Shown: positions 32,412 through 37,815 of the stretch, one piece after another | Numbering within the stretch: the stretch's first letter is position 1 | Layout: each line of letters opens with the position of its first letter | NCBI GenBank assembly: GCA_015178975.1 | Contig: WHVD01000084.1 | Coordinates: 248,001-312,000 of the forward strand | Direction of reading: 5' to 3' | Origin: Hysterangium stoloniferum | Lineage: Eukaryota; Basidiomycota; Agaricomycetes; Hysterangiales; Hysterangiaceae | Length of the DNA: 64,000 nt | Translations under genes and position numbers: made by a program | The notes under the pieces: generated by a model | Seen by the model: the letters and a program-made list of their open reading frames with translations, nothing else | What the model was told of the DNA's origin: nothing | Databases searched by the model: none

Positions 32412-35400
32412 ATGATGGACACCGGTGACGACACTTCCCCATTCAACTCCCCATTTGATTCCCCACTGTACTCTGCCTCGCCTTCCTATTTCGCTTCATT
32501 TCTACCTTATTTTTCTCGCCAACCAGAGCTTAATCCATCCACAAACAACAACACCGAGCCCACCACAAACCCACTCCCCCGCGGAACTCTCCTGCACAAG
32601 GGATTCTACGACCTGCTAACCGCCATCCCCTCTGCCTCTCCTTCCAGACTATGGCGACCAGCCGCCACACAGCAGCAACCTGACCCCCTCCTTGCGGGTC
32701 CGAGATACGACCAGCTTCCCCAGCCTAGCAACCCTCCTGTGACTGTTGCCAGAGCTCCGCCTCAGCGCAAGAACCGCAGAATCAGCAAGGATATGGTGTC
32801 CAAGCCAACAGGCTTCGTGTACGTCTCTCCGTTTCAACCATGTTCCAGCCTTTCCAAGACTTCTCATTCGTTCTATTTTCTCCTCCGTCCCTTTTTTTTC
32901 TCAATCCTGCTTTTCCACCCTTTTTTTTTCTCTCCTATTTCCTTTTTCGTTCCCCAATTCAATTTCGTGACACAAAATCTATACTCTGCAGGCACCTCGT
33001 ACACGCGTCCGACGCGGACCAGGCCGAAGCCATACTCCGCCGTTGGGGTCCAGACGGTATCGGCAAGCTCGGCGGTAAGCGCCCCGCGTCGACAATCCGC
33101 CACACCCCCGCTAATCCCTCCTTTAGATCCCCGCTGGGCCGCCCCCATCAAAGACATAATTCGCCGCCAGCGCGCCGTCGCCGATGTCGTTACCGCCCTC
33201 AAACCCAGCCGGATCGAGAATCCTCCCCCACTCCGTGTAATAAATGGCATGAGCGCAGTTACTGTCAGCTCCACCGGAGCCACCATCAACCATGGCAGCA
33301 TCCCGACCACCACAATGGACGGCCTTCCCCCCGCGTCCCGCCCCTCTGCTCTTCGCTGGGAACTCCCTCCCCACCCCGAAGAACACCAGTCACCCCCATC
33401 CCAACCTCACGCCGAATTTCAATTCCAGTCCCAACTTGAACAATTCCAATTCCAATCTCCACCTCAGCCGCAACCCTCGCCCTCGCCCCGTCCTCTCCCC
33501 GCACTCCCGCGCAAAGACATCACCCCCTCGCTCACGACTCTCGAGAAGGCGATCGCTGCCCGTATTTACTTTGAGAATCTCTATTTCCCGCTCCTCCGCC
33601 ACCGCGCCCCGCGTGAGCAACGTCGGCTGGCAATGGAGAGGGATATGGCCCAGATGAGTATAAGCGAGGCCGCGAGAGAGGAATTGAGGGAACGGTGGAG
33701 GAGGAATGAGACCGAGTACTTGAGGGAGAGGCGGAGGCGAGTGGGACCCAGCGCATTTGTGAAGCTGAAGACAATCGGACATGGTCAGTGCCTGGCTCTT
33801 CCGTTTCCATCTATTCTTTCGTCCCGAATATTTTCTCGTGTTTATTTGTTTGTTTATTATCTTGGGGGACACCGATTTTTAATATTTTTGTTTTCGTAGG
33901 TGCATTCGGCGTTGTGTCACTCGTGCGCGAGACAACTTCAGGACAGCTGTTCGCCATGAAGCAAGTGCGTCATTTCCACACTCAGCTAACTTTGTCATTA
34001 TTTAATATAAAAACAAATGCCACTTTTTATTCCATTTCAAAAAAAAAAAAATCTTTTTATAAAAATTAAACTTTTGTCCTCTCTTCGTCTGCAACAACTT
34101 ATACTCGACCAGCTCCGCAAGATAGACATGCTCCGCAAAGGCCAAGAAGGACACGTCCGCGCCGAACGCGACGTCCTCAAGTCCGCCGCCCAAGTCGGTG
34201 GCTCGGGCTCAGACTGGATCGTAAAGATGTTTTATAGCTTCCAAGATAGGGAACATTTGTATTTGGTATGTCGCTCGCTCTGGGTGTCTTTTCTTTCCCG
34301 TGATCTATTGTTATCGTTTTTTACTTGGAGAAGAGGAAGAGGAGAACCGCTTTTTTTTTTTTTTTGGTCCGTTTTCTCCTCGTGTGGTGCTCGAGAATCT
34401 TCTTCCGCACATTCTGCATTCTCTGCACTTCTTCCATGCTCCCCGACTTGTCCCGATATCTGGGTGATTGGGGGTATGCAGTCGTGGCGTGTACAATCAT
34501 GGTGGTGCGACTGTCAGTTAAACTCTGATGTCCACTTTCGATAATCCCGCCTACCTCATGACTGCCCATCCGCAGTACACGTCCGGCGCGTGCTATATGT
34601 GCATACGGCGCCCACGCATGTCCCCGATGTGGCAAGCAATTCTAATCGGGTGCTGTGGTGTACCACTGTTTTGCACACTGTATTATCCCTTCATTCTTGC
34701 ATATTGATGGGTCTATTTTGATATGATTTCTCCATCACGTCTGTTGGACGTTACTCAGTTGACCATTTAATTCTGCTTCCCCACTTAGGTCCTTGAATTC
34801 ATGGGCGGTGGCGATCTATTAAATCTGCTCATTGAGAAGGACGTGTTTGAGGAGGACTTTGCGAGGTTCTATGTTGCCGAGGTAGGTACTTGTTCGTCCC
34901 ATGTTCTAAGCTCTACTCGGTGCCCTTCCATTCTGGCGTCTGGGGCACACCCCATCTATTCCGTACTTGACTTGGTGCTCTTCCATTCCGACTTCTGGAA
35001 CAATCGTCTGTATACACCTCATTCTCCTGTCCGATACGCGAGGCCTTTGCCCGATACGCGCCATTGTTATTATTTCTGCCATATGACTTTTGTCCTCTTC
35101 ATTTCTTTCACTCCCGATGCTATTTGTCACTTGTCGACCTCCATATTTATACCCCTCCGATGGCCATGAGGGCCTATTTTCTTCTCCCATGAGATTCGCC
35201 TTGAAACCCGATTATCTTTTTCTGAAACACGATGACCTCCCTTTCTCGTGATATTCTTCTTATTCTTGCCCCCCCACCGCCGCTCCGCCATGTGGTCCGA
35301 CGCTTCCCGACCAATTCTTGAAACATACTCTTGTCGATAAGCTATTTGACTCGCCACTTATACCACACCTTGTGCCCCCCCGATTTGATTGATTTATTCC

Positions 35401-37815
35401 CCTTGTCTCTGCCCTTCTCCGCGGTTCACCCCGATCCTCTGTGACTCACATTCTCGTTTCAGATGATTCTCGCCATTGAACAGTGTCACAAACATGGATT
35501 TATACATCGGGACATAAAGCCAGATGTGAGTCTCTTTTTGCGTCGTCCTGTGGTTAGGCCGTGGGCTAGGCCAGTCACAGAGACTTGGCCGCTTCACACT
35601 CTTGACTGCTCATTCATTCATTTTCCTTTGTTTCTACTTCATTTGAGCCCTGTTTTTTGTACAGTCGCTGACGTTTGCTGTGTAGAATTTTCTCTTTGAT
35701 CCCGATGGCCATATTAAACTCAGTGATTTTGGATTGGCGTACGTATGCTTTTTTATTTTGGCAACAGCAATTTCAATATTCATGCCTTGTTCCATAATCG
35801 GAGGCATTATTCTCCGAAACATGTGACTCCTTTTATCCAAACATATTGATTTTATTTATTACATAATATTGATGTTTTTCTGGGAGCACTTGGGGCTAAC
35901 ATACGTTGAATTCTTTCTTGATAGGACGGATCTCCATTGGGCACATGATACGTCGTGTATGTCTCTTCTATATCGTCTTCTTATTTTGTTTGACTTATCT
36001 TTTATTAGACTACGAACAGCAACGCAAGGATCTCCTGAAGAAGCACGGGATAGACCTGGAGGACGGTACAGGAGATCTTACCAAAACACGCCGCATGGAT
36101 AGAAAAGAGGTTGAGAGGATCATGGGTGGCGGCGAGGGTGAGGGGGGGATATTCACGTGGAGAGAAAAGAATCGAAAGAAGGCAAGTGCCGGTTGGCGGT
36201 GCCACAAGAAGAGTGGTGGCTAACGATTCGTGATTTTGACTTAAACTCAGCTGGCATATTCTGTGTAAGCTTTAAGGGTCATCTGTGCCGATCCGTGTTG
36301 TTGACGAATCCCTTTCCATGTGATTGCTGGATTCCTGGCTTTCTTGATTTTGACAGTTGCGGGACTAACTCATACAGTGGGTCACCTTCCCGCCTTCACT
36401 CACCTAGATCTTTGTTCACAACAGTTCCCCCTTTGCATGCGCAGTGTCGCCGGAAGTTATCCGCGGTAACACCCGTCTATTCTTGACACGCGCTGCGCTG
36501 ATTTAATTAACCACTACCCTAGGCCACGGATACAGTTTCTCCTGTGACTGGTGGAGCCTGGGGGTGATCATGTACGAATGCCTATACGGGTGCGTGTATT
36601 CTCCTTTGATTTTGAAAGAAATGGCGTCGGGTTTTAATCCCGAATGCTGATTTAATCTTACCAGCTACCCACCGTTCGTGAGCAATTCAGTAAGTGTTCT
36701 CATTTCCTCGATCCCGACGGCTCTCCTTTGTGCTATGTGTTTATTTATTTAATTCCGCACTTTTATTCATATCCGGTTATTGCTTTATTTTACTCCTACC
36801 CCTGGGAGCCATCTCTCCCCTGATTTCTTTACTTAATGAACTTATAACTCCCTTAATCTATCCTTTTCCACCGGGTGCCAGTCCTGATTCCGCCAAGCTT
36901 ACTTACCGCATATGACTTGTCCCCGCTGATCACTCTCACTTATCTCTCTCTCCCTTTCTTCCCTCCCAGCGTCACGTCACCCGACAGAAGATCCTTAACT
37001 GGAAACAATCACTCCGCTTTCCCTCACGACCGCACGTATCCCTTGCCGGTGTAAATCTGATGGAGCAGCTCCTCTGTGAGCCTGAAGATCGCCTAGGCAG
37101 TCAGGCTTCGACATCTGTCTCCCGTGCCGACTCCCTTATCATACAGACGCGCCGAAGCGGGTTTGTGAATTCTTTTGGGGGGAAAGGAAGCATTGACGGC
37201 GCCGAGCTTATCAAGGTAAGTACGGGGGGTGATTTTCCTCGAGTCTTCTTCCGAAATTTCGGTGTTGAGAGGCTCCCCTCGGGCACGTGTGAGGTGATAA
37301 GAGAGCCGCCGTACTTATGATTTGTTAATGACAGGCACACTCGTGGTTCTCTGGCATCGATTGGGATCATATACGCAAGTACCCCGCACCATTTAGACCT
37401 GAATTGCAGCATCCGGAAGACACGCGTCATTTTGATGGGGACATTCCCGCAGAGGTGAGTTGGCACTTTGTGCCATTGCAATAAGGCTGTTTCCAGATTT
37501 TACTCATTAAACGATATTATTTCCACTTCTACTTTACTCTATACAATGTAGCCCCTTGCACCGGCGAACGGTGCGGCGGCGGACGCAACCCGCGATCCCT
37601 TGCTACGGGATAAGACACACGGAGCGCATATACTTGAAGTCCGTAAGGCTCTCGCGTTCGCCGGATTTACACACAAGAGTCCTCGTGCAATTAGTTATGC
37701 GCCGCTAGGTCAATTATATCCAGACAACGATGCATCCGCAAGGGATCGGGGCCGAAACACTGTCCGAGAAGTTAGGAGGAATACTATGCAACGGGGAAGG
37801 GCAATCTCAATGTGA
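32412..37815 (+). CDS. NDR/LATS-type AGC kinase with N-terminal CRIB (Cdc42/Rac-binding) motif
   Basis: Eighteen exons close exactly to 851 codons: 32412-32818, 32992-33074, 33127-33783, 33900-33964, 34113-34265, 34789-34881, 35463-35525, 35686-35738, 35925-35956, 36009-36181, 36251-36264, 36357-36376, 36445-36465, 36523-36589, 36665-36689, 36970-37215, 37335-37454, 37552-37815. A CRIB motif lies at about 124-142 (VSKPTGFV, then HLVHAS). An N-terminal MOB-binding-like helix region ([20 protein letters not shown]) precedes the kinase (from about 373): glycine loop GHGAFGVV, Lys403 in FAMKQ, HRDIKPD with Asp503, DFG Asp521, an NDR-type insert, CGTNSYMSPE and [19 protein letters not shown]. The C-tail hydrophobic motif is FAGFTHK (Thr804). 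NDR kinases with MOB partners control polarity, septation and wall growth. Intron 36182-36250 is GC-AG. Coupling to Cdc42 is inference. Confidence 0.9.

Follow-up and report, generated by a model that had tools for sequence, protein, structure and literature searches.

Can a single fungal gene join a Cdc42-binding element to a kinase of the NDR family? The question is raised by 64,000 nucleotides (nt) of the Hysterangium stoloniferum genome (assembly GCA_015178975.1, contig WHVD01000084.1, positions 248,001 to 312,000), hereafter the window, for which a preliminary description had proposed that a CRIB motif is fused to an NDR/LATS-type kinase. The gene in question lies at 32412-37815 of the window, with all exons on the forward (+) strand. 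Rebuilt from the DNA, it comprises 18 exons and 2,556 nt, or 852 codons including the stop, and encodes 851 residues, which reproduces the earlier exon and codon counts exactly. Our preferred reading, to which we give nearly an even chance, is a single gene whose product, an additional NDR kinase, carries a degenerate CRIB core and may bind Cdc42 or Rac through it.

The first step is whether this is one gene. An in-frame stop lies upstream of the first ATG, and 16 of the 17 introns have GT-AG boundaries, intron 10 (36182-36250) being GC-AG. Exon 1 (32412-32818) encodes the N-terminal region (residues 1-136) with the basic residues KNRR and the first half of the CRIB-like core (VSKPTGFV, residues 129-136), while exon 2 (32992-33074) supplies the second half (HLVHAS) and the residues that follow, and the CRIB-like stretch (residues 129-142) is thus assembled across the exon 1/exon 2 junction. 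Exon 3 (33127-33783) carries a helix predicted with low confidence at residues 168-187, a proline- and glutamine-rich linker to about residue 300 and, from about residue 301, the NDR N-terminal (MOB-binding) region and the start of the kinase domain. No stop interrupts the frame between the CRIB-like segment and the NDR kinase, and the rebuilt translation bears out the earlier statements that exons 1 and 2 encode the CRIB pattern and that exon 3 runs stop-free from there into the NDR region. Of 2,000 dinucleotide shuffles, 7 keep the 219 whole codons of exon 3 free of stops and 1 keeps residues 1-383 open; the linker alone (residues 165-310) remains open in 267 of 2,000, so its openness is by itself weak evidence. 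A splice-site matrix trained on every intron of this gene but the first, and thus also on intron 2, puts introns 1 and 2 on top: their donors are the two best in 32700-33100 and their acceptors the two best in 32830-33200. Codon usage ranks the model frame first in 12 of 13 segments, the exception being residues 331-383, which are coding by homology; this is a consistency check only.

These results bear on the idea that two adjacent genes, one for a small CRIB-like protein and one for an NDR kinase, were merged only in the gene model. A separate kinase could start at either of two in-frame ATGs, 33249 and 33315, which precede the MOB-binding region, and short proteins annotated with a CRIB domain occur in Agaricomycetes. 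However, the CRIB frame is stop-free up to the kinase with an exon 3 so rarely open in shuffles, the three donor-like sites within that exon (33562, 33613 and 33716) all lie downstream of the point where the MOB-binding region begins, and none of the exon's YAGs has a CTRAY in the preceding 45 nt. The N-terminal part, moreover, matches this gene alone: a search with the first 299 residues against the 111-Mb assembly (E up to 1) gave no match beyond the gene itself. We therefore consider a pair of merged genes improbable and a single gene strongly favoured, as the preliminary description had supposed.

Parts of the same evidence weigh against the N-terminus as modelled. With scores of 5.3 and 5.1, introns 1 and 2 have two of the four weakest acceptors in the gene's 17 introns, and a YTNAY branch-site match in the last 60 nt is missing from intron 1 alone. 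The codon evidence for the linker is weak, some intron frames score equally high, and a synonymous-only score does not separate them. Together the two introns measure 225 nt (173 + 52), and their joint retention (32819-33126) would leave the frame open, so that an isoform in which the core lacks its HxxH half is possible. Taken as a regulatory switch, retention would insert 75 codons in frame and replace that half. Intron 1, however, has a GC content of 40% against 56% and 69% in the flanking exons, both its donor and its acceptor rank in the top two of that stretch, and an open frame through a pyrimidine-rich intron is unsurprising. Such a switch seems to us very improbable, and we retain the spliced single gene.

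The second step is the identity of the kinase, which, judged from its sequence, is a genuine member of the NDR family in which every tested hallmark is present, in agreement with the earlier assignment. Its best matches in a sequence search of the PDB were yeast Cbk1 (362.9 bits) and human STK38/NDR1 (311.6 bits), followed further down by MRCK (223.1 bits at most) and ROCK1 (207.8 bits), all taken from the best 60 of 2,393 matches. Membership in the MRCK/DMPK family was considered and rejected, its top score being 223.1 bits versus 362.9 for Cbk1; a Pfam scan of the whole protein found no C1, PH or CNH domain. The catalytic residues are intact (FAMKQ at 400, HRDIKPDN at 501, DFG at 521). The family features, as given in the available text of a Cbk1-Mob2 structure paper and a Mob review (PMC4428629, PMC7096357), can be followed by alignment: an arginine-rich, MOB-binding N-terminal region ahead of the kinase aligns with yeast Cbk1, the extended activation segment from DFG 521 to SPE 606 aligns with the Cbk1 insertion, the activation-loop serine in AYS is present, and the hydrophobic motif FAGFTH (residues 800-805, FxxFT) aligns with FIGYTY of Cbk1.

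These elements are spread over many exons. Exon 4 (33900-33964) holds the end of the glycine-rich loop and the lysine of FAMKQ, exon 5 (34113-34265) belongs to the N-lobe and exon 6 (34789-34881) continues the kinase domain; the catalytic loop HRDIKPD (residues 501-507) lies in exon 7 (35463-35525) and DFGLA, from residue 521, in exon 8 (35686-35738). The extended activation segment begins in exon 9 (35925-35956) and its insertion occupies exon 10 (36009-36181), which precedes the GC-AG intron. Exon 11 (36251-36264) encodes LAYS with the putative activation-loop serine S597, exon 12 (36357-36376) CGTNSY, and exon 13 (36445-36465) SPEVIR, in which SPE replaces APE. A WW pair, TGGTGG in the DNA, is found in exon 14 (36523-36589), and YPPFVSNS in exon 15 (36665-36689). 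The remainder consists of the C-lobe (exon 16, 36970-37215), the AGC C-terminal extension with the PxxP-type segment PAPFRPEL (exon 17, 37335-37454), and the C-terminal tail with the hydrophobic motif and the stop (exon 18, 37552-37815).

Which NDR kinase this is can be approached through identities. With yeast Cbk1 the window kinase shares 43% identity over 459 columns, and with pieces of STK38 that are without the N-terminal region and the insertion, 52% over 309 columns. Against the genome's own loci, whose models were hand-joined and are partial, it shows 46% identity to a Cbk1-like locus (C223) over 357 columns and 37% over 336 columns to a locus (C35) called Dbf2-like by reading. For the Cbk1-like locus itself the identity to yeast Cbk1 reaches 71% (363 columns), far above that of the window kinase, which is therefore not the Cbk1 orthologue. 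Judged by these identities, the window kinase is an additional, divergent NDR kinase distinct from the genome's Cbk1 and Dbf2 orthologues, and the idea that it is one of the two well-studied fungal NDR kinases has to be given up. Its P+1 loop (36357-36465) reads GTNSYMSPE where yeast Cbk1, STK38 and the genome's Cbk1-like locus have GTPDYIAPE and the Dbf2-like locus has GSPDYMAPE, a divergence that suggests changed substrate choice or regulation. The tryptophan of RWQLF in Cbk1, which we take to be the docking residue W444, aligns with a lysine in the window kinase.

Filamentous ascomycetes are already known to have an extra kinase of the Cbk1-like NDR kind, and the descriptions that follow are those of the available portions of the cited papers. 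The Aspergillus nidulans kinome has four AGC/NDR entries, namely CotA, SidB, SrrB (the Rim15 orthologue) and AN10485, An-Stk21; the last corresponds to Neurospora crassa NCU03242 (stk-21), has CBK1 and orb6 as best matches, and can be deleted without loss of viability (PMC3591445). The orthologue in Fusarium, PUK1, is conserved among filamentous fungi but has no distinct counterpart in yeast; it is expressed almost only in perithecia, and has two stop codons in kinase subdomain IX that are RNA-edited (PMC4817773). Two CBK1 orthologues and no DBF2 are reported for Wolfiporia cocos (PMC5030230). On the opposite side stands a Mob review that speaks of two NDR kinase classes in filamentous fungi (PMC7096357). 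Compared by description only, STK-21, An-Stk21 and PUK1 resemble the window kinase as Cbk1-like NDR kinases standing beside Cbk1/Cot-1 and Dbf2/Sid2. By elimination from this literature, we infer that the window kinase may belong to the STK-21/PUK1 group. Two differences emerge: whereas some ascomycete genes of the group have kinase-domain stops that are RNA-edited, the WW pair of the window gene is encoded directly as TGGTGG, and whereas the available descriptions of the group carry no CRIB, the window kinase has a CRIB-like core.

The third step is therefore the core itself. Residues 129-140 fit ISxPxxFxHxxH with I replaced by V, and KNRR precedes them; many CRIBs are preceded by a basic stretch. 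In a Pfam search with a 60-residue segment, PBD was the sole family listed (E 0.048, 14.4 bits). A profile of our own, built from eight CRIBs (four of this genome, PAK1, PAK2, WASP and N-WASP), gave 10.3 bits for the N-terminal 330 residues and 8.9 bits for the whole protein, with profile positions 2-13 aligned. The best of 2,000 shuffles reached 7.6 bits, under the score of the N-terminus, and among 3,385 decoy frames (180,292 residues, drawn from the window and from 13 loci) the highest score outside the core frames of the four PBD loci was 7.2 bits; this top decoy sits in the C553 locus and may hold the remainder of that locus' own PBD. Shuffling the N-terminal 330 residues 100,000 times produced the pattern [ILVM]SxPx(2-4)FxHxxH in 3 cases, and shuffling the whole protein as often produced it in 8. 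On this sequence evidence the core is a better-than-chance CRIB core without the rest of the domain.

Much weighs against taking this core as a working CRIB. The HVG that should follow it reads HAS, the A-S at that position occurs in 0 of the 8 profile CRIBs, and the downstream PBD segment is missing. Pfam PBD (PF00786) was not found in the 851-residue protein or in its first 299 residues (E up to 10, HMMER filters on), and the 14.4 bits of the segment lie below the Pfam cut-off of 21.3 and align only profile positions 1-14 of 59; the genome's Ste20-like and WASP-like CRIBs scored 95.1 and 31.7 bits in the same search. By Pfam, then, the segment is not accepted as a CRIB domain. The E-values of our own profile were 0.15 for the N-terminus and 0.42 for the whole protein, and the four PBD loci, all in its training set, scored 43.9-63.9. 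A phmmer search of the segment against the PDB returned 14 matches up to E 10, none of them a CRIB protein; they were repeat proteins, synthases and one uncharacterized chain. By a rough estimate from typical residue frequencies, the five fixed residues of SxPxxFxHxxH are expected about once per fungal proteome by chance, so the pattern alone is no proof. Relatives of the N-terminus and kinase sought in viral contigs, prokaryote genomes and plasmids included none from fungi, although these collections, in which the plasmids gave one Streptomyces kinase, are not meant for fungi and are silent on conservation. Finally, a published table gives A. nidulans Stk21 a Pkinase domain only, in the part of the paper available (PMC5307856).

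Accordingly, an ordinary additional NDR kinase of the Stk21/STK-21/PUK1 type, with a CRIB look-alike that arose by chance and control by MOB and STE20-type kinases only, is only slightly less likely to us than the preferred reading. The sub-threshold PBD score, the missing HVG and downstream segment, the profile E-value of 0.15, a pattern so loose that a proteome may hold one by chance, and the extra kinases of filamentous ascomycetes, in whose available descriptions no CRIB appears, are what it would explain. Set against it, the core outscores all 2,000 shuffles and every non-CRIB decoy frame tested, and it stands after basic residues and, like the CRIB of the PAK-like locus on C553, ahead of the kinase. 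An extra NDR kinase whose degenerate core may bind Cdc42 or Rac remains our preferred reading.

If the core does bind, what might it do? One possibility, which we hold more doubtfully than the preferred reading, is that the protein would be a fungal NDR kinase acting as a direct Cdc42/Rac effector, recruited by Rho-GTP through an N-terminal minimal CRIB while keeping its MOB co-activator, and convergent with MRCK. In the manner of CRIB cores, the basic stretch and core would form a strand against GTP-bound Cdc42 or Rac, and the flexible linker of about 110 residues would tether the kinase to sites of polarized growth; its activation there would follow the usual NDR route, through a MOB protein and an upstream STE20-type kinase. 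A structure predicted for exon 3 from a single sequence (a weak model, with a mean predicted local distance difference test score, pLDDT, of 54) places a helix at residues 168-187, leaves residues 188-300 without secondary structure and forms helices in the MOB-binding region; it suits a tether in which a flexible linker joins a short strand that binds the GTPase to a conventional, MOB-dependent NDR kinase. The role of the CRIB would likely be recruitment or local enhancement rather than a PAK-like autoinhibitory switch, because the part of the PBD after the core, which is autoinhibitory in PAKs, is missing. Since the MOB-binding region is retained by alignment, the CRIB would add to MOB control and not replace it. 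The genome holds candidate partners: a Cdc42-like gene (C441), whose identity to the query is 84% over query residues 48-175, and three MOB loci, read by eye as Mob1-, Mob2- and phocein-like. No extra MOB dedicated to the window kinase appeared among these three loci in an exon-by-exon search that could miss a fourth.

Several known systems offer a measure of how unusual this arrangement would be. With Cbk1/Orb6/Cot-1 and STK38 the window kinase shares the MOB-binding N-terminal region (Cbk1), the extended activation segment, the activation-loop serine and the hydrophobic motif. PAKs such as Ste20 and Cla4 likewise have the core N-terminal to the kinase domain, but they are STE-group kinases with a full PBD, and the Ste20- and Cla4-like loci (C510 and C553, named by eye) are separate in the genome. 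MRCK carries its CRIB near the C-terminus, together with coiled coil, C1, PH and CNH domains. The catalytic domain of the window kinase is far closer to NDR, and Pfam finds it without C1, PH or CNH. In the available text on the animal DMPK family, MRCK included, an AGC-group kinase is combined with a CRIB (PMC1420674), the same logic as in the window kinase. Among the literature matches listed, a set with subscription papers mostly outside its scope, none places a CRIB on a fungal NDR or AGC kinase, and a survey of fungal kinase-associated domains, in its available text, names PBD once and NDR and CRIB never (PMC2838846). The new part would thus be the CRIB on a fungal NDR kinase, if it works.

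The genome is not poor in CRIBs. Four loci exceed the Pfam PBD cut-off, namely a Ste20-like, a Cla4-like, a WASP-like and a PH/TKL-kinase gene (names by eye), and the earlier statement that fungal CRIBs are known from PAK kinases and Gic proteins was too narrow. In the last of these (G000:C66:173893; L004, L047), the CRIB segment HIGYPTNFKHDLHVTYDPEAGEIT stands after a PH-like domain and before a TKL-type kinase, both recognized by eye, and reads HVT for HVG, another unusual pairing of CRIB and kinase. The Cdc24 gene to which the preliminary description had pointed is indeed represented in the window by a Cdc24-like gene, with RhoGEF matches at 2535-3175 (C538:250535-251175) and PH and PB1 in the open reading frame 3677-5203; at a distance of about 27 kb it was given no weight. 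The kinase gene is adjoined by a homeodomain open reading frame (PF00046, 46 bits) at 29746-30693 on the reverse (-) strand. Directly upstream of its start codon, imperfect 24-bp repeats AGAGAACATTTCTCCCAATTATCT (3.6 copies over 32280-32366) are followed by a 15-bp array to 32383, and a GAGAACATTTCTC-like palindrome occurs within 32280-32383; a regulatory role of this array is possible. The genome at large has 71 matched KDZ transposase stretches, and its genes are intron-dense; both features agree with an Agaricomycete source.

NDR kinases and Cdc42 both govern polarity in fungi, and their connection is still debated. In fission yeast, Orb6 is said, in the available text, to control Cdc42 spatially (PMC5011436), and in a further partial source Orb6 is described as largely independent of the Cdc42 activator Gef1 (PMC6367570). 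The extra NDR kinase of ascomycetes is known mainly through fruiting-body development and RNA editing. Were the CRIB non-functional, the window gene would be an ordinary additional NDR kinase. If it is functional, the two modules in one molecule would place an NDR kinase downstream of Cdc42 and would provide, in a basidiomycete, a testable regulatory idea for a little-studied extra fungal NDR kinase.

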